Of a stretch of 64,000 bases of DNA, positions 4,012 through 56,912 are shown in pieces. The stretch comes from Quercus robur (Eukaryota > Streptophyta > Magnoliopsida > Fagales > Fagaceae), in contig NC_065536.1 of NCBI RefSeq assembly GCF_932294415.1, forward strand, positions 50,096,354 through 50,160,353, written 5' to 3'. The position numbers and the translations under genes were made by a program. Every line of letters begins with the position of its first letter. The first letter of the stretch is position 1. A model generated the notes under the pieces. It was not told where the DNA came from and searched no databases. It was given only the letters and a program-made list of their open reading frames with translations.

Positions 4012-4048
4012 ATTGAATTTAAATATATATATATATATATATATATAT
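3001..4048. other. AT-rich intergenic stretch ending in poly(A) and (AT)n
   Basis: No gene seen. A poly(A) run of about 40 bases lies at about 3969-4009, and an (AT)n tract at 4023-4048 is the target into which the Tat element inserted; the same tract resumes at 15593. Confidence 0.7.
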
Positions 4049-4870
4049 TGTAAGGTCGCAATTTGGGTCCCTAGCCCAAGCCCAAGTGATGGATAAACTT
4101 AGGCTCAAAAAGCCCAATACAATAAATTTGTAGAGAGTGGGTTGGAAAACTGAGCTTTAATAAGTTGGACAACAAGTAAAATGGATTCAGATGACAAAAA
4201 AAGGAAGATAGATTGATTTAAACTAAAGAAAATCATCATCAGCAAAGTCCAAGGAGATTAGTTCTTATATATTTCTCTCAAGTTGGATTACAGACTCAGT
4301 TCTTGACTGCTACAGTGTTTTTCTCTTAATTTCTCTATCCCCTTCTCTCAGGGTATCTCTTCCATTTTATATTATCTTCACCTTTCATCTCCACCTTTCA
4401 CGTGCAGATTAGATTGTTGGTGTTGATTCTTGTCCCATCAGCATCTTCCTAAAGTCTTTGGGTAGTAGTTGTAAGGTTGAAAGTTACTTTTCAGGTATCA
4501 CTTCATCATTAATGCGGCCAGAGAGTTAGCTGCAGAGCATTTAATGCGGTGGTAACAGCTTTCTCTTTAGATGTTTCATGACTTTCCCCTGTCCTATTCC
4601 TTCCTGATACTTATCCTCATCCATGGAATGATCCAGAACGTTTTCTCTTGATGGCAAACCATACCCTCCGACCTCGGCTTTTCTCATCTAAGGAGGGATT
4701 CTTCTTCAAACCACCTTTCTGGATGGTTTTAATCGGATTTCACTTCTTCAATTACTAACACGAATCCTCATGAAAGTATTTATCTGTCCTCGAATTGTTT
4801 AATGTCCTCGAATTGGGCCCCTAGCCTAATATATACATAAATATAGGCTCCTAGGCCTATCACCCCTACA
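4049..4870 (-). repeat. Left LTR (3' LTR of the Tat element)
   Basis: 822 bp, TG...CA termini, matching 14795-15592 along its length. It has a few indels: an extra agccca copy near its left end and about 18 extra bases around 4800 with a repeated tgtcctcgaattg. Because the element reads on the minus strand this is the downstream LTR. The adjacent minus-strand purine-rich stretch at about 4871-4882 is the expected polypurine tract position. Confidence 0.93.
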
Positions 4871-8559: not shown

Positions 8560-9375
8560 CTAATTTACCTCAAGCATGTGGTCCGAGGATCCATGAAGGA
8601 CAAAGGCTCTGTTTGATACTTAGCAGAATGATTAAAAGATATCAATTTACCCAAAGTATGTGGTCTGAAGAGTCAAGCATGACCAAGGTTTTGGTTGATA
8701 CTTAGGAAAATGTTACGAAGTGTTATTTTACCCAAAGTAGATGGTCCGAGAAACTAGACATAACTAAGGTTTTTTTTAACACTTAGAAAAAGAGCTTAAA
8801 ATATCAATTTACCCAAGGTTTGTGGTTCGAGGAGCCAAGCATGACTGATGTTCTGTTTGATACTTAGAAAAATAATAGAAAGTATCAATTTACCTAAATC
8901 TTGTGGTTTAAGGAGTCAGGCATAGCTAAGGTTCTGTTTAACACTTAGGTAGATATCAAGAAGTATTAATTTACCCAAAGCATGTGATCCGAGGAGCCAA
9001 GCATAGCTAAGGTTCTGTTTAATACTTAGATAGATGTCAGGAAGTATTAATTTACCCAAAGCATGTGGTCTGAGGAGCCAGGCATAGCTAATGTTCTGTT
9101 TAATACTCAGATAGATGTTGTGAAGTATTAATTTACCCAAAACTTGTGGTTCGAGGAGCCAGGTATAATTAAGGTTCTGTTTAATACTTAAATAGATGTT
9201 ATGAAGTATTAATTTACCCAAAACATGTGGTTCGAGGATCCAGACATACCTAAGGTTCTGCTTAATACTTAGCAAAATAAATAAAAATATCAATTTACCC
9301 AAGGTATGTGATCAGATGAACTAGGCATGACTAAGGTTCTGTTTGATATTCAAACCAATAGTAGAACACATGACG
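8560..9375. repeat. 81-bp tandem array, about ten units
   Basis: A conserved ttaccc anchor recurs at 8568, 8650, 8731, 8812, 8893, 8974, 9055, 9136, 9217 and 9298, giving one step of 82 and then eight steps of exactly 81 bp. Units are roughly 80-90% alike. It lies between the integrase end and the antisense extra ORF of the Tat element. Tandem repeats in this variable 3' region are known in Tat/Ogre-type elements and are thought to seed satellite DNA. Since 81 is divisible by three, the minus strand stays open across five units (8916-9302) as a 27-residue repeat; I regard this as a consequence of the period and not as a proven protein. Confidence 0.95.
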
Positions 9376-9434: not shown

Positions 9435-10728
9435 AAGTTGTTTACATTCTAGGGGCGGGGTACAACTTTTTCATCTAGATCTTTAAGATAATATGCACAT
9501 ATTCCAGTCACTGATGTGATACGATATGACCCTTCCCAGTTGGATCCCAATTTTCCCCATACTAGGTTCTTTACAGTTCCCAAAACCTTTCTAAAGACCA
9601 AGTCCCCAGGTGCTAGCGGCCTTAACTTTACATCTGAATCATACCCTTACTTGAGCTTGTGTTGGTAGTATGCCAGCTGAACTATAACATTTTCTCTTCG
9701 CTCTTCAATCAAATCTAAACTCTTCTCCAATAGCCCATCATTATTGCTCGGAGTAAAAGAGCTTGTTCTCAGCATTGGAAATCTTATTTTTAGAGGAATT
9801 ACAGTCTCAGCCCCATAAGTCATCGAAAAAAGGGTCTCCCCAGTGGACCTTTGAGGTGTAGTCCGATATGTCCAAAGGACGTGTGGCAACTCTTCCATCC
9901 ACTTTCCATTTGCGTCATCCAACCTCTTTTTCAGCCCACTCACTATGACCTTATTAACAACCTTGGCCTGTCCATTCTCCTGTGGATATGCGGGGGTGGA
10001 ATATTTATTTGTTATGCCCAGGTCACAACAATATCTCCTGAAGGTTTTGCTATCAAATTGAAGACCATTGTCCGAGATGAGTGTACGAGGGATTCCAAAC
10101 CGAGTGACAATATTTTTCCAAATAAATCTCTTGGCATCCATATCTCTGATATTTGCTAGTGGTTCAGCTTCGACCCATTTGATGAAATAATCTGTGCCGA
10201 CCAGCAACCATCTCTTATTCCCTACTGCCTTAGGAAAAGGCCTTACAATATCCAAACCCCATTGAGCAAAAGGCCAAGAACTGGACAGGGGATTAAGGAC
10301 TCCTCCAGGTTGATGAATGTTTGGAGTAAATTTTTGGAATTGATCGCACTTCTTCACATACTCTTGTACTTCCCTCTACATATTTAGCCACCAATATCCT
10401 TGAGAAGGGCCCTATGAGACAAAGATCTGCCCCCTGTATGATTTCCACAAATCCCTTCATGTAATTCTTCTAGGAGTAGCTCAACTGCTTCAGGGTGTAT
10501 GCACAGCAGATATGGTCTAGAAAAATAGCGTTTATATAACTTTCGGTTCTTAGACAGCCAAAATCGAGGAGCCTTCCTCCGTACCTTGTCAGCCTCAGAC
10601 TTACTCTCGAGCAAGACATTTTCCTTAAGGAATAGCATAATAGAGTCCATCCAGCTAGGACCTACCCTTATTTGATGAATATGAACCCCATCTCCCCCTA
10701 CCTTAGTAGGTTTACACAAGTCTTCCAC
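9435..10728 (-). pseudogene. Tat integrase, inactivated
   Basis: Covers the zinc-binding N-terminus, the catalytic core and the C-terminal domain with the VPRPWNVNNL-type ending. The zinc region shows HEGICGNH and then KKCDQF, where the second Cys of the CxxC pair is Phe. The core ORF (9647-10357, 236 codons) has the first Asp in GLDIV (residue 36) and the second in SDNGLQF (96), but the third acidic residue, expected 35 residues later in the GQAE motif, is Lys (residue 132, codon 9962-9964). A frameshift and a TAG near 10370-10390 separate the zinc region from the core, and another stop lies near 9650. The enzyme would insert cDNA into the genome if intact; this copy cannot. Confidence 0.93.
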
Positions 10729-11700: not shown

Positions 11701-12669
11701 TTAGAAGAAAGGTCTACACTTGTCTGCTGATCGAAAGATGAATCGATTTAGAGCAGCAGTCATCTCTATTAATTTCTGGACCTTTTTGGGATTCCGAGGT
11801 GGCTGTAAATTGTTGATTGCTTTAATCTGGTCAGGGTTGACTTCAATTCCGCAGTGTATAACCATGTACCCCAAGAACTTCCCTGATTCGACACCAAAAG
11901 AATACTTAGAAGCATTAAGTCGCAGCTTGTGTTTCCTCACGATCTCAAAGATATTCCCGAGGTCATTAACGTGCTCATATTCCAACTTACTCTTGACCAC
12001 CATGTCGTCTATATAAATCTCAATGTTTTTCCCTAACTGTGGCTTAAACATCTTGGCCATCATCCTCTAATAAGTAGACCTTGCATTCTTCAGACCAAAG
12101 GGCATCACCTTGTAGTGGTAATTTCCAGTAGGAGTGACAAAAGCTGTTTTCTCTTGATCATCCAAGGCTAAAGGTATCTGATGGTACCCTTGAAAGGCAT
12201 CCAAAAAGCTCATTCGAGGATGGCCTACAGTTGCGTCTACTAGCTGATCAATTCGAGGCATGGGGAAGGGGTCCTTTGGACAAGCTTTATTCAAATTTGT
12301 GAAGTCTACACATACCCGCCACTTCCCATTCTTCTTCTTTACTACCACTATATTAGCCAACCATTCAGGGTAGAATACTTCTTTAATAGCCTCAACCTGC
12401 TTAAGCTTGTTCACCTCCTCCTTGACAGCATTAGAATGCTCTTTAGATGAGCGCTTAGGTGGTTGTTTCCTAGGGAGGATAGTCAGGTTGACATTCAGAT
12501 GATGGAAAATGAAGTTTGGATCCACCCCAGGAGCTTCATAGGCATGCCATGCGAACACATCAATATTCCTTCTTAGAAACACTAATAATTCTTCCTTCTC
12601 TCGAAGAGGCAACTGAGCTCCAATTTGAAAAAACTTCTCCAGATCACCGTCTATAGCAATTTCCTCCAA
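11701..12669 (-). pseudogene. Ty3/gypsy reverse transcriptase
   Basis: Two open segments (12067-12669 and 11701-12063) in the same frame, separated only by a TAG at about 12064-12066 where a Gln codon is expected. Diagnostic motifs are KKKNGKWRVCVDFTNLN, FLDAFQGYHQI, MPFGLKNA and the catalytic YIDDMVVKS (near 12012). The polymerase Asp residues are still present, so this is the best-preserved part of the element. Reverse transcriptase copies element RNA into DNA. The substitution type (CAG to TAG) fits decay of methylated DNA. Confidence 0.95.
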
Positions 12670-14775: not shown

Positions 14776-14793
14776 CCCCACAGACAGTGCCAA
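14776..14793 (-). promoter_or_regulatory. Primer-binding site of the Tat element
   Basis: On the minus strand TTGGCACTGTCTGTGGGG begins two bases inside the LTR end. Position and the TTGG start are right for a tRNA primer site, and it resembles sites known from Tat-lineage elements. The tRNA was not identified. Confidence 0.7.
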
Positions 14794-14794
14794 T

Positions 14795-15592
14795 TGTAAG
14801 GTCGCAATTTGGGTCCCTAGCCCAAGTGATGGATGAACTTAGGCCCAAAAAGTCCAATATAATGAATTTGTAGAGATTGGGTTGGAAAACTAGACTTTAA
14901 TGAGTTGGACAACAAATAAAATGGATTCAGATGACAAGAAAAGGAAGATAGATTGATTTAAACTAAAGAAAATCGTCCTCGGCAAAGTCCGAGAAGATCA
15001 GTTCTTATATATTTCTCTCAAGTTGGATTACAGACTCAGTTCTTGACTGCTACAGTGTTTTTTTTCTTAATTTCTCGATCCCCTTTTCTTAGGGTATCTC
15101 TTCCATTTCATACTATCTTCACCTTCCATCTCCACCCTCCATGTGCAGATCAGATTGTTGATGTTGATTCTTGTCCCATCAGCACCTTCCTGAAATCTTT
15201 GAGAAGTAGTTTTAAGGCTGAAAGTTACTGTTCAGGTATCACTTCATAATTAATGCAGCCAGAGAATTAGTTGCAGAGCATTTAATGTGGTGGTAACAGC
15301 TTTCCCTTTAGATGTTTCATGACTTTCCCCTATCCTAGTCCTTCCTGATACTTATCCTCATCCATGGAATGATACAGAACGTTACTCTTAATGGCAAATC
15401 ATACCCTCTAACCTCGGCTTTGCTCAACCAAGGAAGGATTCTTCCTCGGACCACCATTCTAGATGACTTTAATCGGATTTCACTTCTTCAATTACTAACA
15501 CGGATCCTCATGAAAGTATTTATCCATCCTCGAATTGGGCCCCTGGCCCAATATATACATAAATACGAGCTCCTGGGCCTATCACCCCTACA
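14795..15592 (-). repeat. Right LTR (5' LTR of the Tat element)
   Basis: 798 bp, TG...CA termini. On the minus strand this is the upstream, promoter-bearing LTR; a TATATA motif lies near its start at about 15550. Flanked on the right by the TATAT target duplication and the rest of the (AT)n tract. Confidence 0.93.
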
Positions 15593-17716: not shown

Positions 17717-18509
17717 TGTAGGGACACGATTCTCAAACGGCCCAACAATGACGTTGGGCTCGCACGTGGAGGATCCCTCACAATAAGATTTGTAGAGAGT
17801 GGGCTTGAAAGGCTAGTATTTGGTCACAGGGCGTTGGTCCAAACCGGACTTTAGGAAACTCAGATAAGAAAAGGCTTCAGATAAGAAAAGGCTTCAGCCT
17901 GGATATCCAAGCCTTACTGCTTTGTAACTTGAGGGATTGGACTCCTCGGATCATGTCCGAGGAGCACTAATGTCTTTCTCCGGTTACCCGACGGTGGGTT
18001 TTTCGTGGTGGTTTGCGTATATTATCCGGGCATTCTCATTCCTGGAGTTTTTCCCAGGAAGTCAGATGGGGACCTCTACTTCGTTACCTTATGTTTCCTT
18101 TTATATTATCCCACGTTTGCTGTCCTTCGTCCACGTGTAGGGTTAATTTTTCCAGGACTGATATTTGTCCCGTCAGTCTAATCCCGCAATTGTTGGGGAT
18201 GGTTGATAAAGCTGAAGAATACTGCTATGTTAGGTGCGGAGCCTTATCTAGGAAGGGTAATATGGGTAAATCTCCCAAGATATTTTAGATCTCCCCATGG
18301 ATTTTTCTTATAGCTCTTTTTTACCCCTCTTCCTAAGGTAGCTTTGGGTCTGCCGAGGACTAAACTGTCCTCAGCTGCATCTCTGGGCCACCTTCAGCCT
18401 TATATTTTCAAGCTTGGGCCATAATACTTGGGCCATAATCTTTTTCGGCTTGGGCCTGTGGACTTCCCATGAGCAAGCGGGTCTGGCCCATAAATTACCG
18501 GGCCCCACA
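17717..18509 (+). mobile_element. Solo LTR with perfect TSD, Ty3/gypsy-like
   Basis: 793 bp starting TGTAGGGACACG and ending GGGCCCCACA, flanked by TGTTT on both sides (17712-17716, 18510-18514). No internal retroelement sequence is attached, so it is a solo LTR left by recombination. It shares a tgtagagagtggg segment (near 17790) with the Tat LTR (near 4130), suggesting a related family. It contains a 17-bp tandem duplication (agataagaaaaggcttc) near 17862-17896. Confidence 0.92.
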
Positions 18510-26808: not shown

Positions 26809-26978
26809 TTGACGTTTCTCCATAAAGTTTCTTTTTCTTGCTGTTTGACTGATTGATGTGCATTTAATCTTTGAATAAAACACAATACTGTTTGACCTTA
26901 AACGCATATCGAATCCAATCCCTCTCAATTCTCTGATATCTGTAGTATATATACTACTGCATCTGTAATCTGTTGACG
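26809..26978 (+). promoter_or_regulatory. NLR upstream region with W-box cluster and TATA
   Basis: Four TTGAC cores lie within 170 bp: TTGACG 26809-26814, TTGACT 26845-26850, TTGACC 26892-26897, TTGACG 26973-26978. A TATATATA stands at 26946-26953. TTGAC(C/T) is the known binding site of WRKY factors, so pathogen-responsive control is a reasonable inference. If this TATA is used, the 5' UTR would be only about 20 nt. Confidence 0.5.
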
Positions 26979-26994
26979 AATAGTGAGAAGAGAA

Positions 26995-29900
26995 ATGGCC
27001 GAGGCAGTTGTCTCCAGCGCTGTAGAAGCCCTCATTTCAAACTTGAGTGCTGTCCAGCAGTTTAGAGGGTATTTGAATGTGGAAGACGAACTTGGGAGGC
27101 TCCAGCAGGCTGTTTCCAGAATCCAACCTGTACTTTTGGATGCAGAGGAGAGGTACAATCAGAGCTATGAGGTCAAAATTTGGCTTAGAAAGCTTAAAGA
27201 TGCATTTGATGATGCTGATGAATTAGTGGATGATTTCTTTACTGAGTCTCTGCGGCGAGAACTTCTGAACCTGGGTAGACGCACAAAACAGGTACGTATC
27301 TTCATCTCCAAGCTTGCATATGGTTCAGCAAGGTTGCCTAAGTTTAAGACAGTTATTGCGAGAATAGAGAAAATTGCATCCGAAGCTGACAGATTCCAGT
27401 TTAATAACCGGTGTCCTGAGAAGAAGGAGAGAAGAGAGTCTCAATCTTCTTCTTTGTCACGTGAGGTCGAGATTATTGGGAGAGAGGAGGAAAAGAGTGC
27501 AATTGTACATGATCTAGTGAAAATGGATAATAACAATGACAAAGCGAATGTCTCAGTGATTTCAATAGTTGGGGGCGCAGGTGTAGGAAAGACTGCACTT
27601 ACTCAATTTGCATACAATCATGAGACTGTAAGAAAACATTTCCAGCTACGATTATGGGTGCGTGTATCTGAATCCTTTGTCTTGAAAACGATTGTTGAAG
27701 AGATTGTGGAATCAGCAAGCGGGGAGAGACCGGAGAATCTCGGGTTGAATTCATTGTTGGTACGCCTTCGGGTAATGATTGATGGGAAGCGGTTTTTACT
27801 TGTACTGGATGGTGTATGGAATGAAGATAGTGAAAAATGGTTCAGCTTGAAAAAACTGTTAATTTGTGGCGCGAGGGGAAGTAAAATTGTGACTACTACA
27901 CGTAGTAAATTGGTTGCAGACATTATGCACACAGTTCCAATATTTTTTTTAGAACCTCTGTCATTCGACGATTCACTTGCTTTATTTAAGAAGATGGCAT
28001 TCGGGGAAGAAGAAGAGCGAACAAATCAAGCTCTTGAATCCATCGGGGAGGAGATTGTACAGAAGTATGCTGGCGTTCCTCTTGCCATAAGGACCATAGG
28101 GAGTCTGTTATACTTCAAAAATTTAGAAGGTGATTGGTTGGAGTTCCTGCAGGATGAGCTTCCAAAAATTTTACAACAAGAAATTGATATTTCTGCAGTA
28201 CTTAAGTTGAGTTATGATCATCTCCCATCACATTTGAAACAATGTTTTGCTTACTGTAGATTATTTCCTAATGATTATGAAATTGATGTACAGAAACTGA
28301 TTAAACTTTGGATGGGGCAAGGGTTTCTCATTTCATCAAACAAAGATCAATGTCTAGAAGATGTTGGTTATGAGTACTTTATGGATCTATTCCAGAGGTC
28401 CTTTTTCCAAGAGGTAGAAACAGATGAATGGGGCATTATAAGAAGTTGCAAAATGCCAAAAATCTTGCATGATCATGCAATTTTAGTGGCAGGGGTTGTG
28501 AGCTGTGCGTCAAATTTAAATGGGGACAATATAAATGATAGAGTCCGTCATGTGTCATTCGATTTTAATTTGGTATCATCACAGCAATTTGTGAGACCCT
28601 TGCTTAAAGCCAAGAGAATACAGACATTTCTATTGCCTAGTCAGTCATGGCTTCCAAACGATGAAAAGTTCAGCAAGTCCACTTGTAGAAAAGTTCGATC
28701 ATGGCTTAAAGCAATTTTTTCACGATTCAAGTGTTTACGTGTGTTGGATTTACATGATTTAGGGATCAAGGTGGTTCCAAGTAGCCTCTGTAAGTTGAAG
28801 CGTTTAAGATATCTCGATCTCTCTAAGAATGGAATCAAAAAGCTTCCAAGTTCCATAACCAGCCTGCTGAATTTGCAAACATTGAAACTTTCGAATTGTA
28901 ATGTGCTTGAAGAATTGCCAAAGGACATTATAAATTTAGTCAGGCTTCGGCATCTTGAGATTGATGGCTGTGATAAATTGGCTCAAATGCCATGTGGACT
29001 GGGAAAATTGACTTCTCTTCAGACATTATCCTTATTTGTATTAAGGAATCAGTCTTTCTGCAGGCAGAGTGGCAAGCTAAATGAACTGAAGAGGCTAAAC
29101 AACTTGAGCAGAGGGCTTGAGATTTTACATCTAGAACATTTGTCAGATGCTTCAACAGAAACTAAGAATGCAAATCTGAAGGAGAAACAACGTCTTCGAG
29201 CCTTGACTCTAAGATGGTTTCGACAAGATGATGCTGATGTTGATGTGGAGAGTGACGAGAAGTCATTGGAAGGCCTCCAGCCACACCGAAATCTGAAAAC
29301 GTTGTGGGTGATAGGCTACGGGGGTATGAAGTTTCCAAGTTGGCTTTCTTCTCTCATATATCTTGTTAAATTTACTCTCTGCAATTGTCTCAAGTTCCAA
29401 CATCTACCGCCATTAGATCAACTCCTTTTTCTCAAGAGTCTTAAACTTCAAAGGTTGCATGCTCTGGAGTACATAACAGACAGCGGCGGAAAAGACAAGT
29501 TCTCTTCTTCAGCAATATCAATAACATTCTTCCCATCCTTGAAGGAACTTGTACTCTGGGATTGTCCCAATCTGAAGGGATGGTGGAGGGATGTTCCAGT
29601 TGGTGATGATAAGAGTGCCGTTGGAACAACACAAGCATCAATGACAGATCAGCAACAACAGTCTCCGTTGCTGCCTTCATTTCCCTGTCTTTCAAAATTA
29701 GAAATTCAGTATTGCCCAATGCTGAATTCCATTCCCTTCTATCCACATCTTGATGAACAGCTGGTCCTGAATAATGCCAAGCTGACACTTTTGCAACAGA
29801 CAATGTGGTATATGGCAGCATCGCAAGGCCCAACAACTGCAGCTATGTCAGTTCGTTCTTCTACTCTGCCCTCTTCCTCCTTGGGTCCTCTTTCCAAATT

Positions 29901-30480
29901 AAATTCTTTGACTTTAACTGGCATTAAGGAGCTAGAGTGTTTGGAAGATGAATGGCTGCAAAACTTCACTTCTCTTGAGAGTCTCATTATTTCAGGGTGC
30001 CCAAGACTAATGTTCTTATCAAATGGTATTCAGCATCTCACCTCCCTTAAGTGTATGGACATTAGGGACTGCGAGGAGCTTGATCTTTCCAGCAATGAAG
30101 GTGATGGCGAGCAATGGAAAGGACTGAGGAACCTCTGTTCCCTCACTATTTGGGGAATCCCAAAGTTGAAGTCTCTCCCGAATGGGATGCAATATGTTTT
30201 GCCTCTTGAAAAGCTCCGGATCCTAAATTGTCCAAATTTAATATCTCTTGAAGACTGGATCAGCAGTTTCACATCTCTTAATAGGCTTGTTATTTCTAAA
30301 TGCCGCAAATTGGCTTTGCTGCCTCATGGAATGAGTAACCTTAAGTCTTTACGTAGACTGGTGATTGATGATTGTCCCATGTTATTGCGAAGATGCCAAG
30401 GGGAAACTGGTGAGGATTTGCACAAGATTAAACACATCCCAGAAATTTCCGAAAGGCTGACTTCTCGGGACTTTGATTAA
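26995..30480 (+). CDS. CC-NBS-LRR (CNL) disease-resistance protein, RGA-like
   Basis: A single uninterrupted ORF of 1161 residues from the ATG at 26995 (MAEAVVSS), typical for an intron-poor RGA-type CNL. Such proteins are intracellular immune receptors that bind nucleotide and detect pathogen effectors. The N-terminal Rx-type coiled coil carries an EDVID-like DADELVDDF (residues 73-81). NB-ARC: P-loop GGAGVGKT (193-200), kinase-2 LLVLDGVW (268-275), RNBS-B SKIVTTTR (296-303), GVPLA (360-364), RNBS-D CFAYCRLFP (from 417), and LHD (491-493) in place of MHD. LRRs run from about 580 to 1130 with irregular LxxLxxL repeats and CPxL-type motifs. Oddities are Gly for the second kinase-2 Asp and Leu for Met in MHD. 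The ORF is intact, so I call it a likely functional gene; the specificity cannot be read from sequence. Confidence 0.95.
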   Translation: MAEAVVSSAVEALISNLSAVQQFRGYLNVEDELGRLQQAVSRIQPVLLDAEERYNQSYEVKIWLRKLKDAFDDADELVDDFFTESLRRELLNLGRRTKQVRIFISKLAYGSARLPKFKTVIARIEKIASEADRFQFNNRCPEKKERRESQSSSLSREVEIIGREEEKSAIVHDLVKMDNNNDKANVSVISIVGGAGVGKTALTQFAYNHETVRKHFQLRLWVRVSESFVLKTIVEEIVESASGERPENLGLNSLLVRLRVMIDGKRFLLVLDGVWNEDSEKWFSLKKLLICGARGSKIVTTTRSKLVADIMHTVPIFFLEPLSFDDSLALFKKMAFGEEEERTNQALESIGEEIVQKYAGVPLAIRTIGSLLYFKNLEGDWLEFLQDELPKILQQEIDISAVLKLSYDHLPSHLKQCFAYCRLFPNDYEIDVQKLIKLWMGQGFLISSNKDQCLEDVGYEYFMDLFQRSFFQEVETDEWGIIRSCKMPKILHDHAILVAGVVSCASNLNGDNINDRVRHVSFDFNLVSSQQFVRPLLKAKRIQTFLLPSQSWLPNDEKFSKSTCRKVRSWLKAIFSRFKCLRVLDLHDLGIKVVPSSLCKLKRLRYLDLSKNGIKKLPSSITSLLNLQTLKLSNCNVLEELPKDIINLVRLRHLEIDGCDKLAQMPCGLGKLTSLQTLSLFVLRNQSFCRQSGKLNELKRLNNLSRGLEILHLEHLSDASTETKNANLKEKQRLRALTLRWFRQDDADVDVESDEKSLEGLQPHRNLKTLWVIGYGGMKFPSWLSSLIYLVKFTLCNCLKFQHLPPLDQLLFLKSLKLQRLHALEYITDSGGKDKFSSSAISITFFPSLKELVLWDCPNLKGWWRDVPVGDDKSAVGTTQASMTDQQQQSPLLPSFPCLSKLEIQYCPMLNSIPFYPHLDEQLVLNNAKLTLLQQTMWYMAASQGPTTAAMSVRSSTLPSSSLGPLSKLNSLTLTGIKELECLEDEWLQNFTSLESLIISGCPRLMFLSNGIQHLTSLKCMDIRDCEELDLSSNEGDGEQWKGLRNLCSLTIWGIPKLKSLPNGMQYVLPLEKLRILNCPNLISLEDWISSFTSLNRLVISKCRKLALLPHGMSNLKSLRRLVIDDCPMLLRRCQGETGEDLHKIKHIPEISERLTSRDFD

Positions 30481-30976
30481 TCTCTTGTTTCATACTTCAT
30501 TCAGCATGTTTAGGTATGTAAAATTCCTTCCTAATCTCAGAGGCACTCATCAATTGAAAATGTTGTTTTTATCACTTGTTAACACCCTGCTCCCCTTTTC
30601 ATTTTCATTTTTTTCTTTCCTTGGAGGCTTTTGATATTTAAGCAAATTTCTCAGTTATTTTTAGTTCATATGCAGAACCAAATGCTGCAGATAGAGAGTT
30701 GGGATTCATGAGACCTCTTTGGGACTACAGATGGAATAAGAATAGCTGTAAGGACCACTTGTTTCTTTATTTTAAAAAAATCTTGTAGTATCCCTAACTG
30801 AAATGACTAGATGATGTATTTGCTTGCTTTTTTTTTTTTTTTTTAATCCTTAAAACAGTGTACAAAATGGAACATGGTGGAGGATGAGGGTGAAGATAGA
30901 TTGAAGGTATAAGCCCCTTTATCTGTAGTGGGTATTTATTTCTTAGTCCTTAATCAATCAATCATCAAGCATCATA
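30481..30976 (+). other. NLR 3' flank, probable spliced 3' UTR
   Basis: Just after the stop, a donor-like tttag|gtatgt (30513) is followed by acceptor-like tatatgcag (near 30676) and a poly-T run with cttaaaacag (near 30858). 3' UTR introns are common in this gene type. This is inferred from splice-like motifs only. Confidence 0.4.
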
Positions 30977-32228
30977 TCATATACTATATAATAAAAGTTG
31001 GGTTTCGACGCCGTAATTGCACCAAATGGCTTTACCAAATTGTAGAATTTTTTTTAGATTTTTAGATTTTCAATAAATTCATTCACTTAAGTTTTTAGAT
31101 AAAAACAAAAAGTTTTTGATCTTTATCAATTTTTTTGGATAAAGTAACAGTAAGTGTTCTAATGATCTTCTTCTTCTTTTTTTGGATAAACATTTATCCT
31201 ACATCATCTATTTCCTAATAACAAATTAACAAATTTAAAAGTATTATTTTTTCTTCTCAAAATTTTTTTCTTTTGGAATAAATAACAAAAAAATAGCTAA
31301 TATGTATTAACTTTAACGTAAATTAAAAAAAAAAAAAATCTAATAACAATCTAATAACATTAACTATTTTTTTGGGATAAAGTAAAAAAAAAAAAACTAA
31401 TATGTAATTAACATAAAATTTTTAATTACGTAAACTCTTTTTTCTTTTTGTTCATATCAAGTTATCAACTTCTTCACAACTTAAAATTATCTAATATAAA
31501 AGTGAGGGTATATATACGGTTTGGTATATTTTTCCCTTTTCCTACCATATGGTTTCTTGATGGTGGAGGGATGTTCCAGTTGGTGATAGATATAATATCT
31601 TCTATTGTTACTAATTTCCCATCGTAGGTGATATTTGCAACACCATGCCTTAGTTCCATGATACATATTTGGAAGTATAAGAGCTATAAATCTACAACCT
31701 GATTGTAAACAAATTTATGTTGTTAAAGATCCATGGAGTTAATATTTTAGCCACCGTAACACATAGGACTGAATAATAAAAAAAATCATGCCAAAATCCA
31801 TGATTGGGTTGTGATTTATCGTTTCTTTCTCCTTCTATATAATATATATTTCAATATTTTGCAATAGTTAAAACATGTTAAGTATAAACAGAAGCCCATT
31901 CTCTCTCTCTCTCTCTCTCAAGAAAACCCTGACACTAAATTTTTTTTTTAATTATTTAAATCTTTCATATTCTGGGTAGGTTGTACATTTAGGCAATTGT
32001 GCTGAGGTGTTAAAATCCCCATATTGAAGTTGATGAGAACATAGATATAAATGTGTAAGCAGACGAAGATGGCATCAAGATATCACATCTAGAGAACATT
32101 ATTTACAAGAATTTTTTAAGTTGATGAGGACACAGAGATAACTAATAAAATTCGTCAATGTTTTTTTTTTTTTTCCTTTTTATTAATATTGTTCAAATTC
32201 TCGTGCGTATGCACAAGTTACATGCTAG
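30977..32228 (+). mobile_element. Non-autonomous Helitron carrying an NLR fragment
   Basis: Begins TCATATACTATATAATAAAAG after an A and ends GTGCGTATGCAC hairpin...CTAG followed by T (32225-32229), the A|TC...CTAG|T pattern of Helitrons. 1252 bp, no Rep/helicase. Bases 31559-31587 are identical over 29 bp to NLR coding sequence at 29579-29607. The exact 5' end could instead be five bases upstream at 30972. Confidence 0.8.
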
Positions 32229-33863
32229 TTTTATGTAATGTACTTCTAAAAAATGTAGGAGCTAGTGTGGGCAAGAAAAGCTAAGACTCAACTTGGTAAG
32301 GTCTTTCCCCCTTTCGTTAATTGTATAGACACTCTTTAGCTTGGACTCAAGCTCAATGTCTAACAAGCAGTACACATGCCAATTCATGTTCCCTATCTTA
32401 AAGATGACCAATATGAAAATCCATTTGCAATCTGTTAACCCATGTTATCTATACCATTAGGTGAAAGCTATTTTATTCTTGGTCTCAGGTTTTTAAATAG
32501 TTCTTTGAATTGTCTATATAAAATATTTTTGTAAAATATATTGCTCTCTAATTTTACAAAGAACATTCTAAGTTGCTTGATTAGAGTAGGGATATATGTA
32601 GTCTGATTCAAATCTAACAAGCATATGTTAGAGGTTTGTGATGTTGCCTTCTTAGTGTCCATATGTTATTTTCTTTGGAAAGTAGAGGAGATACCTAGGC
32701 TACATGGCTTAGTCTTCTGCGACAAGGAACAATTATAATTTATAAGGCATCTAAATGAATTTATGTGCTTCAAGTTGAAGACACCACAAAGTTGAAGACC
32801 AAAATGAATTTGGTGAAGGTTGTGAAACAGATGATGCCTTATAAGTTGTAACTTAACAAATTTTATCCCAATGTGATGATGATGATGATGCCTTCATTGC
32901 TCTCTGTGTTTAATTTGATATCCTTACTGGGCACATTACTTGAGGCATAAGCACAAGTCTAATGAGAGTTTAATATGCATGTATTTGAATGCATTTCTAC
33001 TTCTAAGTTTTTGCTTTGTATTTGCCTTTGAGAGGCACTGAGTAGGGTGCAATATTGCAATTGCTTTGAAATTTAGTGATGGTATTAACTTGACATGTGA
33101 TTACTTCTGTCTAACATTTAGTTGATCTATTCTAATATTATTTATTCACCTTTGTCTTTGGATATCAGAGCACGTTGAGGATGCTACTCTTTACCATGAT
33201 GCTGCATCTATATAAAGTTTCCAATTTATTGGGGCATTTCATGTGTTGCTGGACTTGGGAGTTCATGTTGTTTGTAGTTTGGAGAGCATGTGTTTTGTTG
33301 ACACAGTAAGCTAATAGTCTCATGTGTATCTTGAAATATCTTATATTGCTCCTTTCAATTGTCTATGGATTAGATTAAATGACTTCACATGTGAACATTT
33401 CATTAATAGATATGTTTGTGTCAAAATGTGTTTGGTGTACATGCTTGCATGTGTCCCAGCTTTGGTAGCTAACTTATTCAAGCTATGTCAAGCAGGTTGT
33501 AGTTTACTAATTTGTATTTGCTTTGAATCGTAGGTGGTAGCTTGGAACTAAAAATTTGATGCTGGAAGGAAAATAGTGGTCATCAACTGGGCATATGTTT
33601 ATTAAGCAAGATTTGTAGCTAACTACTACCTGATATCTCATCCCTCTACCACTTGACCAAGGGCCCAATTGCTACATCTTTCCTACTGTTTTTATTATTA
33701 TTGTTATTTTTAGTGTTGTTACTTTTTTTTTTCCCCTTTGGATAACTTAGTCAATTGTAAGTATTACATTACTATATTTCAATATATAAGAGAATATATT
33801 GTTGTCATCGTTGAACACATTACTAAGACTTTACTCTAGATGTAACTTTGTATTCATACTTAA
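32229..33863. other. Gene-free intergenic stretch
   Basis: Short unrelated ORFs only; no domain recognised. A (GAT)n run lies near 32875-32891. Composition is less repetitive than the flanks, and part of it could be a decayed gene or NLR-adjacent sequence. Confidence 0.5.
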
Positions 33864-35352
33864 TCAATATATATATATAACCGAAACCTTTGAAATTTCC
33901 ACAATTTTCCATATTAGCACAGTATTAAAAATTTAAAAAAATAAAAAAATAAACCTAAAAAATAAACATAAACCGGACCCCGATATACTCTCTGCCTTCT
34001 CCTTCTCCAAAATGCAGACCTTAAGCTCCTTTTACTAGCTCCCCCAACCCAACGCTCCTCCTCTACCAGCTCCCCCAACGTTTAGACCCAAGGTAGATCT
34101 CCTTCCTCAGACCCATGGCAAAGACACCATACCCACAGATTCCTCAATCAAAACCCACCATACACACAAACCAACAGAGATCTCCTAGAATCAAAACCTA
34201 TCATACCCACACAAAAAACTATTTCTAACCCAAAAATTTTAGTTAAAAAAAAAAAAAGAAGAAGAAAGAAGCTAAAACCCGAAATTTTTTCCTCAATTTT
34301 GAATATCCTCTCTTCTCTACCCTTCTCTTCCTTCAAACGAAATTCTCTACATCAGCTTCCTCTAATTTGTTTTAAAAAGAAAGTCCAACTCCTTTGCTCC
34401 ACAAACTCTATCATCTCCTTCTTCCTCAACTCTACCTTGATGCCGTAGTGGCAGTAATGGGACACTCCATGTTTTCAAATCAATGTTCTTAATTTCATTC
34501 CGTATTTATTTTTCCTCACATCAATGATCAAACATAAAACTTCAGGTTTGCTATTAAATGATTTGTGAGGGAAAAAAAATAAAAAAATAAAAGTAGAAGA
34601 AAGAATTCAGCCATGGGTTGGGATGGACGAAGAAGCATTCCTCTTGGTTCTTGTAGGCTTGCATTTGTACTTTGTAATAAGTCTGTAGAGTTTTCAAACT
34701 GGTATATTGAGATGACTAAATGAGACTTGGAAATATAAAAAGGCAAAAGCATTGGAATGTGGTATCACGTGGGTAGGTTGCTGGACTTGGGAGTAGAGAA
34801 GTTTCATGATTTATAAAATTATAAACATACTAATATATTTGTTTATTTACAAGAAAACCCAAAATATGAATTATTTTTTCCTCAATAACCATTCTGATCA
34901 CTTTATTATGATTTTCTTTTTTGAAATATTGTAATAAATAAAATTCATTAAACTATATCATTTGGCTTAATAATAGTCATATATAAGTAATATATATGAC
35001 TATTGGATATATGACTATTGGATATATGACTTTTATGTTGTGTATCCAAAAGTTAAGTCATTTTGAATATACATCACTGTAAGTTGCTTTAAGACATTTT
35101 CCTCTCTTCCCGTGTGTGTGTTAAAATATTAATTTTTAATTAATTTTTTTTTTTTGATTGATATTTTCCAAGAAAATGTTAATGCTAAAACAAAAAGAAA
35201 GTTAGTAATTTAATGTTTCATATCGAATTTTTAAGATTGGAATCTTAATATGTGACCAAAGAGGTTACAAAAGTTATATTTGTAAAACATTCATATAAAA
35301 TAATAAGTCATACTCAATAGCTTTTCCGTGCATTGTACGGGTTAACGACTAG
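33864..35352 (+). mobile_element. Non-autonomous Helitron 1
   Basis: Starts TCAATATATATATATAACCG after A and ends with the hairpin CCGTGCATTGTACGG, gttaacga and CTAG before T (35349-35353). 1489 bp. The 5' part (ccgaaacctttgaaatttccacaattttcc and a tctgccttctccttctcc block) closely matches Helitron 2 at 55054, so both belong to one family. No replication protein is encoded. Confidence 0.88.
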
Positions 35353-37090
35353 TTTTTTATATATGGTGCAAAATTGAGGAACTATTACATGTGTTTTACA
35401 TGCAAGCCTCCTAGAACTCATTATTGTTGGGTCTACATAAGGTGTGTTTTGATGATAGTAGGTAGGTTATATTAACTTTAAGATCTGATTTGTGAATATA
35501 ACTAGGAACGTGATTATATTTATGATTTTAAGTTCTTAGTTTTGTTGCTAAAAATTATGTCCAAATCATCACAAGTTGTGGATAAATAAGTCTTGGCTAC
35601 AATCTTTTTCAGGAGTGCTAATAAGTGTTTTTGGCTTTGGTTTATTTGATGGACAAAGTTTAGTTACAAAATTAGTTGTAACTTAAGGCTGTACCTTACT
35701 TGATATATTTTTTTTTTAGGTGAATTTTGAGAATTCCACCATTGGAAAATCTTCTTCGTATATTTTCCATATTTGTAAAATTTCTAGAAAATTAAAGATA
35801 AATAGATATGCCACCAATAACTTGTTTTAATTGCTAGTTTTTGTAATTTAAAATAATGCATAAAATAGCTTATAGATTATATAGTATATAATATCCGATT
35901 AACACAAAATTTGACATGTATATTAAGAGTGTAAAGAACATACAATTCAACAATTATATTTTCAAAATATGTAGTAATGTTTATTTTATTGAGTAAGATT
36001 ATAATTTTAGGCTACAACCAATTTTGTAGCTAAACTTTGTCCTTATTCGATTTTGTTTTTCTTTTATCATTTCTTAGCTTGCAAATATTTTTCTAAATAT
36101 TGGTTAAATTTTAATTTTGCATGTGAAATGAATTATTTTGTCCTCATTTTAATTGTTGAAAATCATATAAAAATAAGACTACACAAAACTTAGCTATAAT
36201 GATATGATAATTGAAGCAAAGTTGGACAAAACTCTCAAAATTGAGTGTTCTATATATGATGAAGATTTGAAAGCTTTATGGGGACGCACAACTATAATGT
36301 TTTTGGAATTACTTTTTAACCATTGTGGTTTGTGGTTATCAAATGACTACATATTGCAAAAGTTCATATTCATATTAGTTTGGAATATTTAGAAAAAATA
36401 ACAAATAGTGTTGCTAGATTTGCATTTGACAGATTTCACACTAACCACGCTCACTAGAAACATTTCTTAATTTTGTGCTTTAATAGGATTTGATTAAACA
36501 TTGGTGAGGAAAACGTGACTAACAATAATAGTATTGATGACCAGTGTAGTGTAGGTCATAATTAAGATAATTTTTTACAAAATATTTCAAAATACATCGT
36601 GCATCGCACGGGATATTAGTTAGTTATATATAAGTTTCAGCATGCCATTACGTCTACGAGAAAATATAAATTCACAATAAGGTTTTTAGTAATGTCAAAA
36701 TTAATTATCAAAGCCTTTCTTTAATAGTATATAAGATGATTTAACAAAGTAGTTTCTATATTATCTTTTTTATTATTTATTTTTAGTTATATAAGATGAT
36801 GTAACAAATTAGTTTTTATATTATCTATAATACTATACTCCATCTGCTTAGTGAAATATAAAATCTAAAATAATAGGACATTTGGAATCAGATAAAATAG
36901 AAGCCCCGCAAATCCTAACATAGAAAGTGGAGTTATTATTATTACTAACCCGTGGAATAGTTAGCAAATCTTGAATAAATAAATAAATAAATATTCACTT
37001 TGTTGAATATTCCAATTATTTAAAACCGAATGATAATTAAATCAATACTTGATAAAAGGAGGTAAAGTGATAATTAAAAATAAAAACTAA
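35353..37090. other. AT-rich stretch with a further Helitron-like 3' end
   Basis: No gene. At 36598-36620 CGTGCATCGCACG is followed by ggatattagt, a Helitron-type hairpin whose terminal CTAG is mutated to TTAG. No 5' end was found. Confidence 0.5.
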
Positions 37091-47413: not shown

Positions 47414-49778
47414 GGGAAAATTACACTTTGCTCACCTGTGGTTTGCCCGAAAAACATTTTGCCTGTCTATGGTTTAAAAACTGGCACTTTACCCACCTAA
47501 GGTTAGTTCCGTTTGTCTCCCGTTACCGACCTCTGTTAAAAATAGGGGTAAATTTGTATTTTTGTTACCTTATTATGTCTCTCTTCTCTCAAAACATAAA
47601 AAACTAAAAAATCAAGAGAAAGGAAGATCTAACAGTTATAATCTCTCTCTCACACATACATCAATTGATTCTCTTTTTAATGTTTCAATTCTGCATAATG
47701 TCACTTTATTATGCTTATTGTTTGATCTTTAACTGAGGGTTCAAATGAACGCTTATGATCATTTGTCACAAGAAAATTCTGCTTTTTACCACTTAAGACA
47801 AGCACACAACCATTGTCGTCTTGTTGACAAATTGTAGAATTTGATCATTTATACTAAATAATCGAAACAAAAGAGAGGGTTGTAGACACTGTATTTTGTA
47901 CCCTTACGACTCGGGTCTCTGTTCCCCAATGATGCCGAAATTATAAGACCCAAGGTCGGATTAGAGCCCAATCAGATCACAAATTGACTTGAGAGATGTT
48001 AAAATGGAAAATATAACTTTTTAATGAGCAAAAAATTTATTTTTGGAAAATAAAGGCCAAAGGAAACCTTTGGCCTGCGTACGCGGGAATGAACCTACGT
48101 ATGCAGCCTTAAAGCCTGCGTACATAGGCGCAAGCCTATGTACGTGGGTAGGGTTTCAGAAACCTATGAAAGACAGTTTTTTGCATTAAAGACTGAGGTT
48201 TGGAATGAATCCCACATTGTTTGGGAGCCGTTCCAAACCCCCATTTTCACAATATAAATAGCCATACATGATACCTTTTCAAAACACACAGAAATCTCAC
48301 AGGAAAACACTAAGGTTCACTAGAAATAGTGAATCAAAGAGGGAATTTTTCACACAACATTCTCAAGTTAATTTTATTTGATTAGGACATTTTCTGGCCT
48401 TGATCTTTGAATTTTAATATTACTAATCGCATTTTTATTGATTTGTGAATAGATTTGACTGAAGGGAACGGTCAAAAATCAAGCCTAAGAGCTTTTGCTT
48501 TGAGGTATTCTTTTTAAGCTTTCTCTTTTATTTCTGCTTTTAATTATGTTTTTGATCTTCTTCTTTTTGCTTTGTTTATGCTAAAACATGTTTGTTTAGA
48601 TTAAGGTTATGTATTTCCTTTGTTTTGAGCATGATAGGATGTTAGATTTAAGCTTTTAAGTCATTTTCTATTTCTAGGTTAAGGTTTAGGGCGTGTCTAC
48701 GTGTGCGTGCTTCTTGCATGCGTATGCAAGCTCGAAGTATGCATATGCATACAACTAGATGACATGATACTAGATGTATGCTAGGGTTTATGTTATACCA
48801 TGTTAGATGAATGCTAGGTTTGGTTAACATGTATGCTAGATGTATGATGTGAGATAGGAGCATGATTAAGGTTTATAGTGTGATGAGATGCCATGATGAT
48901 ATGACATGTATGCTAGATGAATGTTAGGAGATGCCATGATAGATGTATGGTTAGGGATGATTGATGTCATGTTGATTGTTAAATGTATGCTAGTGTGTGT
49001 GTGAGAATAGATACAATATTGGGTGTGCCTTTAATAGAATTAAGACATAAGACACAATGAAGGGAAGCCAACCTTAGGGTTGGCTAGTTTTGGGTGCCTA
49101 AGACTTTCATAAGACCATACCTTAACTCCAAACCCATATCTCTAGTAGTAAAATCAAAAGGTCCTTTATTGAGAGGACGCTATATATATGGTTCCTAGAC
49201 CATTGCCAAAACTAGGTGGCGACTCCCTATTGTGTTCACAAGAGCAAAGACTAGAAAGGCAAATAGAAGAGGAAGTGGAAAAATGAAAATATGTTAAGAA
49301 TAGTAACTGGCAGGTAGAGCATATTGTCACTCGCACTGGAAACACCAAGTTGTCGAGTGCATTAGAAGCTTTTGATGAGCGTAGTTGAGAGAAAACCCAC
49401 TATACATTTGAAACTTGTGACAAATTCCTCATAGGTATTCATTTGAACCCTCAGTTAAAGATCAAACAAAAAGCATAATAAAGTGACATTATGTATAATT
49501 GAAACGTTAAAAAGAGAATCAAATGATGTATGTGTGAAAGAGAGATTATAGTATTTAGATCTTCTTTTCCCTTGATTTTTTTAGTTTTTTTTATGTTTTG
49601 AGAAAAGAGAGGCATAAAAGGGTAATAAAAATACAAATTTACCCCTATTTTTAACAGAGGTGGGGTAACGGGAGACAAACGAAACTAACTTCAGGTGGGC
49701 AAAGTGTTAATTTTTAAACCACAGGTAGGCAAAAGTGTTTTTTAGGTAAACTACAAGTGAGCCAAGTGTAATTTCCCC
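47414..49778. mobile_element. Mutator-like element with about 360-bp inverted ends, interrupted by a solo LTR
   Basis: Arms 47414-47772 and 49414-49778 are reverse complements over about 360 bp (both start GGG(G)AAA-TTACACTT and end at ATTTGTCACAAG). Flanks agaaaattt and aaaaagttt match at 7 of 9, compatible with a 9-bp Mutator-type duplication. The original interior is only about 280 bp after removing the solo LTR, so it was non-autonomous. It landed in the coiled-coil exon of the extra-ORF remnant. Confidence 0.8.
47878..49240 (+). mobile_element. Solo LTR 2 (about 1363 bp) inside the Mutator-like element
   Basis: Same family and orientation as solo LTR 1: begins near GTTGTAGACACTG and ends TGTGTTCACA. 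Flanks agagg/agagc match at 4 of 5. The body has cctgcgtacgcggg and cctatgtacgtggg palindromic blocks near 48077-48150, and ggtggcgactcc near the right end. Confidence 0.78.
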
Positions 49779-56795: not shown

Positions 56796-56912
56796 TTTTA
56801 TTTTATTAGTGATTTATATTTCATTTATCATAGAATATTTTTAAACTCTTATTTTAATATAGCACCAAAATTAATATGATGTTAATTCTTATTTCTAATT
56901 CATGTGTTATAG

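Follow-up and report, generated by a model that had tools for sequence, protein, structure and literature searches.

The 64-kb window, by which we mean the whole stretch of plant DNA analysed here, holds an intact CNL-type NLR gene and, downstream of it, a Helitron-like element in which a short piece of the NLR coding sequence (CDS) recurs (Table 1). Pfam placed Rx_N, NB-ARC, winged-helix and LRR matches within one open frame of the NLR, so that the combination of Rx_N, NB-ARC and LRR in a single frame, by which CNL-type NLRs are recognised, is present. Ten Pfam families matched at E ≤ 0.001, and AAA_16 alone among them scored under its curated cut-off. The stretch that recurs in the element lies directly past the LRR_14 match (574–855). 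A search for relatives of the NLR in viral_contigs returned seven pattern-matching stretches, none of which was confirmed.

Plant Helitrons begin with 5′ TC, end with 3′ CTRR, insert between A and T and carry a G/C-rich hairpin of 15–20 bp about 10–12 bp before the 3′ end (PMC4683698; this and the other sources cited by PMC identifier were available in part, and what we say of them applies to those parts). The element described here opens at an A|TC junction (30976/30977) and closes with CTAG (32225–32228) followed by a host T (32229), in agreement with the terminal motifs and the A/T insertion site of Helitrons, although these are short motifs picked by eye and a second possible A|TC start occurs 5 bases to the left of 30977. 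Its 12-nt hairpin is weak, with a folding energy of −3.5 kcal/mol (z −0.6) that is no better than that of shuffled sequences. A strict scan of the window for Helitron 3′ ends (stem of at least 6) listed three ends, at 17971, 51176 and 56796, and not the one at 32228. The longest M-to-stop frame in the element spans 61 codons, so the element is non-autonomous at most, and BLASTN revealed no second copy of it in the window. For these reasons we keep to the label 'Helitron-like', for a candidate whose ends mostly fit Helitrons. By inspection, splice-like signals flank the element (GTATAAG at 30907 and TATCAG ending at 33168), and it seems to lie within a 3′-UTR intron of the NLR. Other Helitron-like 3′ ends, each a GC-rich hairpin with CTAGT or TTAGT after it, occur at 35326–35352, at about 36596–36620 and at 56796; the last came from the scan, and the first two were found by eye and are unlisted by it.

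Table 1. Features of the NLR gene and the adjacent element (window coordinates).
Feature	Position	Strand	Basis or description
Intact CNL-type NLR gene	26995..30480	+	Open reading frame of 1161 codons, 0 internal stops; Pfam
Donor stretch in NLR CDS	29579..29607	+	Codons 862–871, first codon partial; protein context NLKGWWRDVPVGDD
Helitron-like element, 1,252 bp	30977..32228	+	Ends read from sequence; GC 0.26
29-bp copy in element	31559..31587 (one-gap reading 31559–31592)	+	Exact identity and gapped BLASTN
13-nt palindrome AGATATAATATCT	31588..31600	+	6-bp arms, 1-nt centre; abuts 3′ end of copy
Hairpin	32203..32214	+	4-bp stem, 4-nt loop; 10 nt before CTAG end

The first-pass annotation had described an exact, same-strand identity with mismatches on both sides, and letter-for-letter comparison confirmed it: all 29 bases agree at an offset of 1980, and the 29-mer is confined to these two sites of the window, its reverse complement being absent from all 64 kb. 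To the left, the flanks differ at once (...TTTCTT at the copy, ...GAAGG at the donor). To the right they read AGATATAATATC at the copy and GATAAGAG at the donor, and a shared GATA appears once one extra A in the copy is skipped. BLASTN accordingly extended the match to 31559–31592 versus 29579–29611 (34 columns, one 1-base gap, 97%, E ∼1e-8). Apart from this possible 4-base extension past the 1-base gap, homology beyond the tract is absent, and the alignment scores of the flanks (19 and 15) are as found for other isolated matches. The copy starts 1,951 bp past the end of the donor stretch and 1,078 bp past the NLR stop codon; the distance of 1.4 kb given in the first-pass annotation needs correcting, since 1,370 bp is the distance from the donor stretch to the left end of the element. 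The pair is thus identical, isolated within the window and, at the donor site, embedded in an intact NLR frame.

Chance was evaluated with an order-2 Markov model fitted to the 64-kb window, under which 3.4e-7 direct pairs of at least 29 bp and 3e-13 further copies of this particular 29-mer are expected. As a control we collected exact matches of at least 15 bp, both direct and inverted, from which simple 15-base seeds and overlapping tandem pairs had been removed, and called a match isolated if its local flank score was below 40 within 120 bp. The filter used in this control retains the 29-mer, whereas a complexity filter at threshold 0.7 drops it. By this definition 39 of 103 exact matches were isolated, that is, without similar flanks. 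The 29-bp pair was the longest of the 39, followed by a 27-bp AT run, two repeats of 20 bp and three of 18 bp, and no further isolated, non-simple repeat fell between 20 and 29 bp. For short isolated matches the Markov model is too low (27 of the 39 were direct versus 13.7 expected, and 5 direct ones were at least 18 bp long versus 0.32 expected), probably because some of them (flank scores of 30 to 37) go back to repeats that have since diverged. The true background at 15–20 bp therefore lies above the model, yet 29 bp is still far outside it. On the strength of expectation and control we rejected chance as the origin of the pair, as the first-pass annotation had done from the length of the identity.

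Several other repeats were noted in the window. An isolated, same-strand exact repeat of 18 bp, GTTGCTGGACTTGGGAGT, lies near the NLR (33245–33262 and 34777–34794, offset 1532); its flanks are unlike (scores 15 and 13), 0.32 direct pairs of at least 18 bp are expected under the Markov model, and it may be a chance match or a second short patch. At a spacing of about 10.74 kb, direct repeats with exact stretches of up to 63 bp occupy ∼4047–4870 and ∼14793–15592 and enclose minus-strand frames (9647–10357 and 12067–12669) that look integrase-like and reverse-transcriptase-like by inspection; the whole is probably an LTR retrotransposon. Inside this LTR-retrotransposon-like stretch, a diverged repeat array with an 81-bp period (spacings of 81 plus multiples) spans ∼8600–9300. 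An inverted repeat at 47510–49681, whose arms match exactly over up to 32 bp (47718 versus 49438; also 47694/49471 and 47510/49664), may be a foldback or terminal-inverted-repeat element.

Base composition bears on the direction of copying. GC is 0.52 in the 29-mer, compared with 0.41 in the NLR CDS and 0.26 in the element, and together with the open frame of 1161 codons this suggests copying from the NLR into the element. The argument from GC is not unique to this tract, since a TC run in the element (29-bp windows at 31889–31894) also reaches 15 G+C. The NLR coding sequence, which had been proposed as the origin on first reading, accordingly remains the likely donor. The opposite direction, or a functional word shared by gene and element under selection, has in its favour that exact identity carries no direction by itself. 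We regard either as highly improbable, because GC and reading frame are less in keeping with the AT-rich element than with the gene, and because Rfam returned no family at gathering score over 26900–33800. Given this Rfam result and fold energies that are not unusual, we also rejected the idea that an RNA structure or hairpin lies at the copy. As for the 29-mer being widespread or a contaminant, it had no matches in viral_contigs (viral) or genome_contigs (prokaryote); as neither is a plant collection and the sequence is plant DNA, this was expected and is little informative.

We consider it fairly probable that the 29 bp are a single short templated ('filler') insertion, which took the neighbouring NLR exon as template in the course of break repair or a template switch. 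A tract so short, so exact and so near its source fits a templated repair insertion better than the capture of a large gene piece, and a distance of 1.95 kb on the same strand suggests a local template. We infer not only the direction but also the break-repair route, a timing after the arrival of the element and the form of the pre-insertion site. The event would begin with an intermediate within the element under repair or replication. This could be a stalled fork, or else a break end on which polymerase-theta-type end joining or synthesis-dependent annealing was at work. A strand would pair through a few bases, possibly GAT, with the NLR exon ∼2 kb upstream, copy some 26–33 bases from it, and then be released and rejoined at its home site. 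At its simplest, the pre-insertion site would have been TTTCTTGAT followed at once by AGATATAATATC, and about 26 new bases would have come to lie between the two; if the switches to and from the template both took place at GAT, just such an older site, TTTCTTGAT joined to AGATATAATATC, is to be expected. Two features at the junctions are compatible with this scheme, both noticed post hoc and both weak. GAT stands at both ends of the tract, which would suit copying that enters and leaves by microhomology, and 71 of 3457 29-bp stretches of the CDS (∼2%) likewise have the same 3-mer at both ends. The palindrome AGATATAATATCT directly abuts the copy; inverted repeats with arms of at least 6 start at 7 of 1254 positions in the element and at 374 of 63960 in the window (∼0.6%), and this one folds no better than shuffled sequences (z −0.68).

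Filler DNA of this kind has precedents in plants. In maize, fillers originating near the break measure 8 bp at bz1, 1–131 bp at wx, 31–84 bp at R-r and 50 bp at p2/p1, and they occur together with deletions (PMC2686159). In Arabidopsis they have a counterpart in the templated insertions typical of polymerase-theta end joining (TMEJ), of which the majority match sequence close to the break and some derive from other molecules (PMC10923293). The tract studied here resembles both, as described in these sources, in being tens of base pairs long, exact, nearby in origin and abruptly joined. It differs in that its template lies ∼2 kb away rather than beside the break, that the acceptor site is inside a transposon-like element, and that neither a deletion nor an empty site was seen for it, one allele being known here. 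In humans, class 2 templated sequence insertion polymorphisms show end-joining features and no target-site duplication (PMC5110952). They too are patches copied from another place, but their templates are distant, whereas the NLR exon is a neighbour of its copy, in a plant-type locus known from a single allele. Among the matches listed in our literature searches, we saw none that deals with a similar patch from an NLR in a Helitron.

On first reading, repair had been preferred over Helitron capture. A short, exact and nearby tract does fit templated repair, but the two, which that reading set against each other, are not mutually exclusive. The filler-DNA model explains Helitron capture by the repair of breaks within the element (PMC6544945), so the contrast is partly one of naming, and the real issue is whether the event was local or preceded the arrival of the element. 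Our tract shares with filler-DNA capture, as that source describes it, a host gene piece within an element that has Helitron-like ends. It departs from the usual Helitron gene capture in comprising 29 bp only, from the adjacent gene, and carriage through transposition is unsupported. The case for a local event rests on nearness, which is partly built in because the donor search covered this window; another NLR elsewhere could have the identical 29 bp. NLR genes form families whose members can share conserved LRR words, and the element may have gained its 29 bp elsewhere from a paralogous NLR, as a miniature Helitron gene capture, and landed here later. That Helitrons capture gene pieces, for which the filler-DNA route has been proposed (PMC6544945), speaks for such a history. 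It would, on the other hand, require a coincidental landing less than 2 kb from a gene with the identical stretch, and the window holds no third copy of the 29-mer, so that we view it as unlikely, though as the most probable of the alternatives. Dating the event by its identity was abandoned, since at tree-like rates 29 sites may stay unchanged for many millions of years.

The remaining alternatives to a templated insertion from the NLR exon concern its template, its original length and the integrity of the data. An NLR transcript, perhaps spanning the element as part of the putative 3′-UTR intron, or its cDNA, might have patched the break. The copy lies on the same strand as the NLR, the splice-like signals either side of the element would suit such a transcript, and RNA-derived patches have been proposed for the human class 2 insertions (PMC5110952). 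The same-strand orientation is an even chance in any case, nothing about the tract sets an RNA template apart from a DNA template, and we therefore hold an RNA intermediate to be improbable. It is more doubtful still that the tract is the recognisable remainder of a longer captured NLR fragment. Captured gene pieces do decay with age, but when the NLR CDS was compared with the element (BLASTN, word 7, E up to 10), a tract of 29–34 bp was the sole match, and the NLR protein (TBLASTN, E up to 10) matched at residues 863–871 only (31561–31587, E 0.68). Extending the nucleotide comparison to 30481–33000 added two chance-level matches outside the element (30640–30660 and 32871–32888, E 8.0 each). 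We thus rejected a longer decayed fragment and regard the tract as one short piece; with flank scores resembling those of other isolated matches and 29 of 29 positions intact, uniform decay of a long fragment is hardly possible. The first-pass annotation had also pointed to a file artefact, and the arithmetic behind this concern is correct: the offset of 1980 is 33 × 60, and both copies begin two bases before a line edge, which is column 59 of a 60-column line when counted from the start of the window. An offset that is a multiple of 60 is a coincidence of about 1 in 60. A line-copy error would double whole lines, whereas this tract measures 29 bp and continues from one line to the following one (as counted in the window; the phase of the source file may differ). 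Misassemblies rarely insert 29 bp cleanly, either. The concern is thereby answered in part, and we judge an assembly or file artefact very improbable.

In sum, the 29-bp pair is real and well above chance, and it is most likely an ordinary repair scar, the product of a known kind of event; the copy is best seen as a scar without evident function. A regulatory role can be imagined. In maize, captured gene pieces have been described as reservoirs of siRNAs directed against their donor genes (PMC13317346), although the available part of that source names no case as short as 29 bp. The shared 29-nt stretch holds six 24-mers or nine 21-mers with a perfect match to the NLR exon, and if 24-nt siRNAs cover the element, the six shared 24-mers could turn a repair scar into a small-RNA handle through which siRNAs of the element reach the NLR. 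We think it very unlikely that such a handle methylates or trims the neighbouring NLR; if it did, the patch would form a link between a transposon under silencing and a functional immune receptor. As a single case with no empty site, the tract leaves the general view unchanged. If confirmed, it would be a clean natural repair patch copied over ∼2 kb inside one plant resistance-gene locus. It would then indicate that, on a small scale, break-repair filler and Helitron 'gene capture' can be one and the same event, and that gene words are seeded into transposons by very short, easily missed scars.
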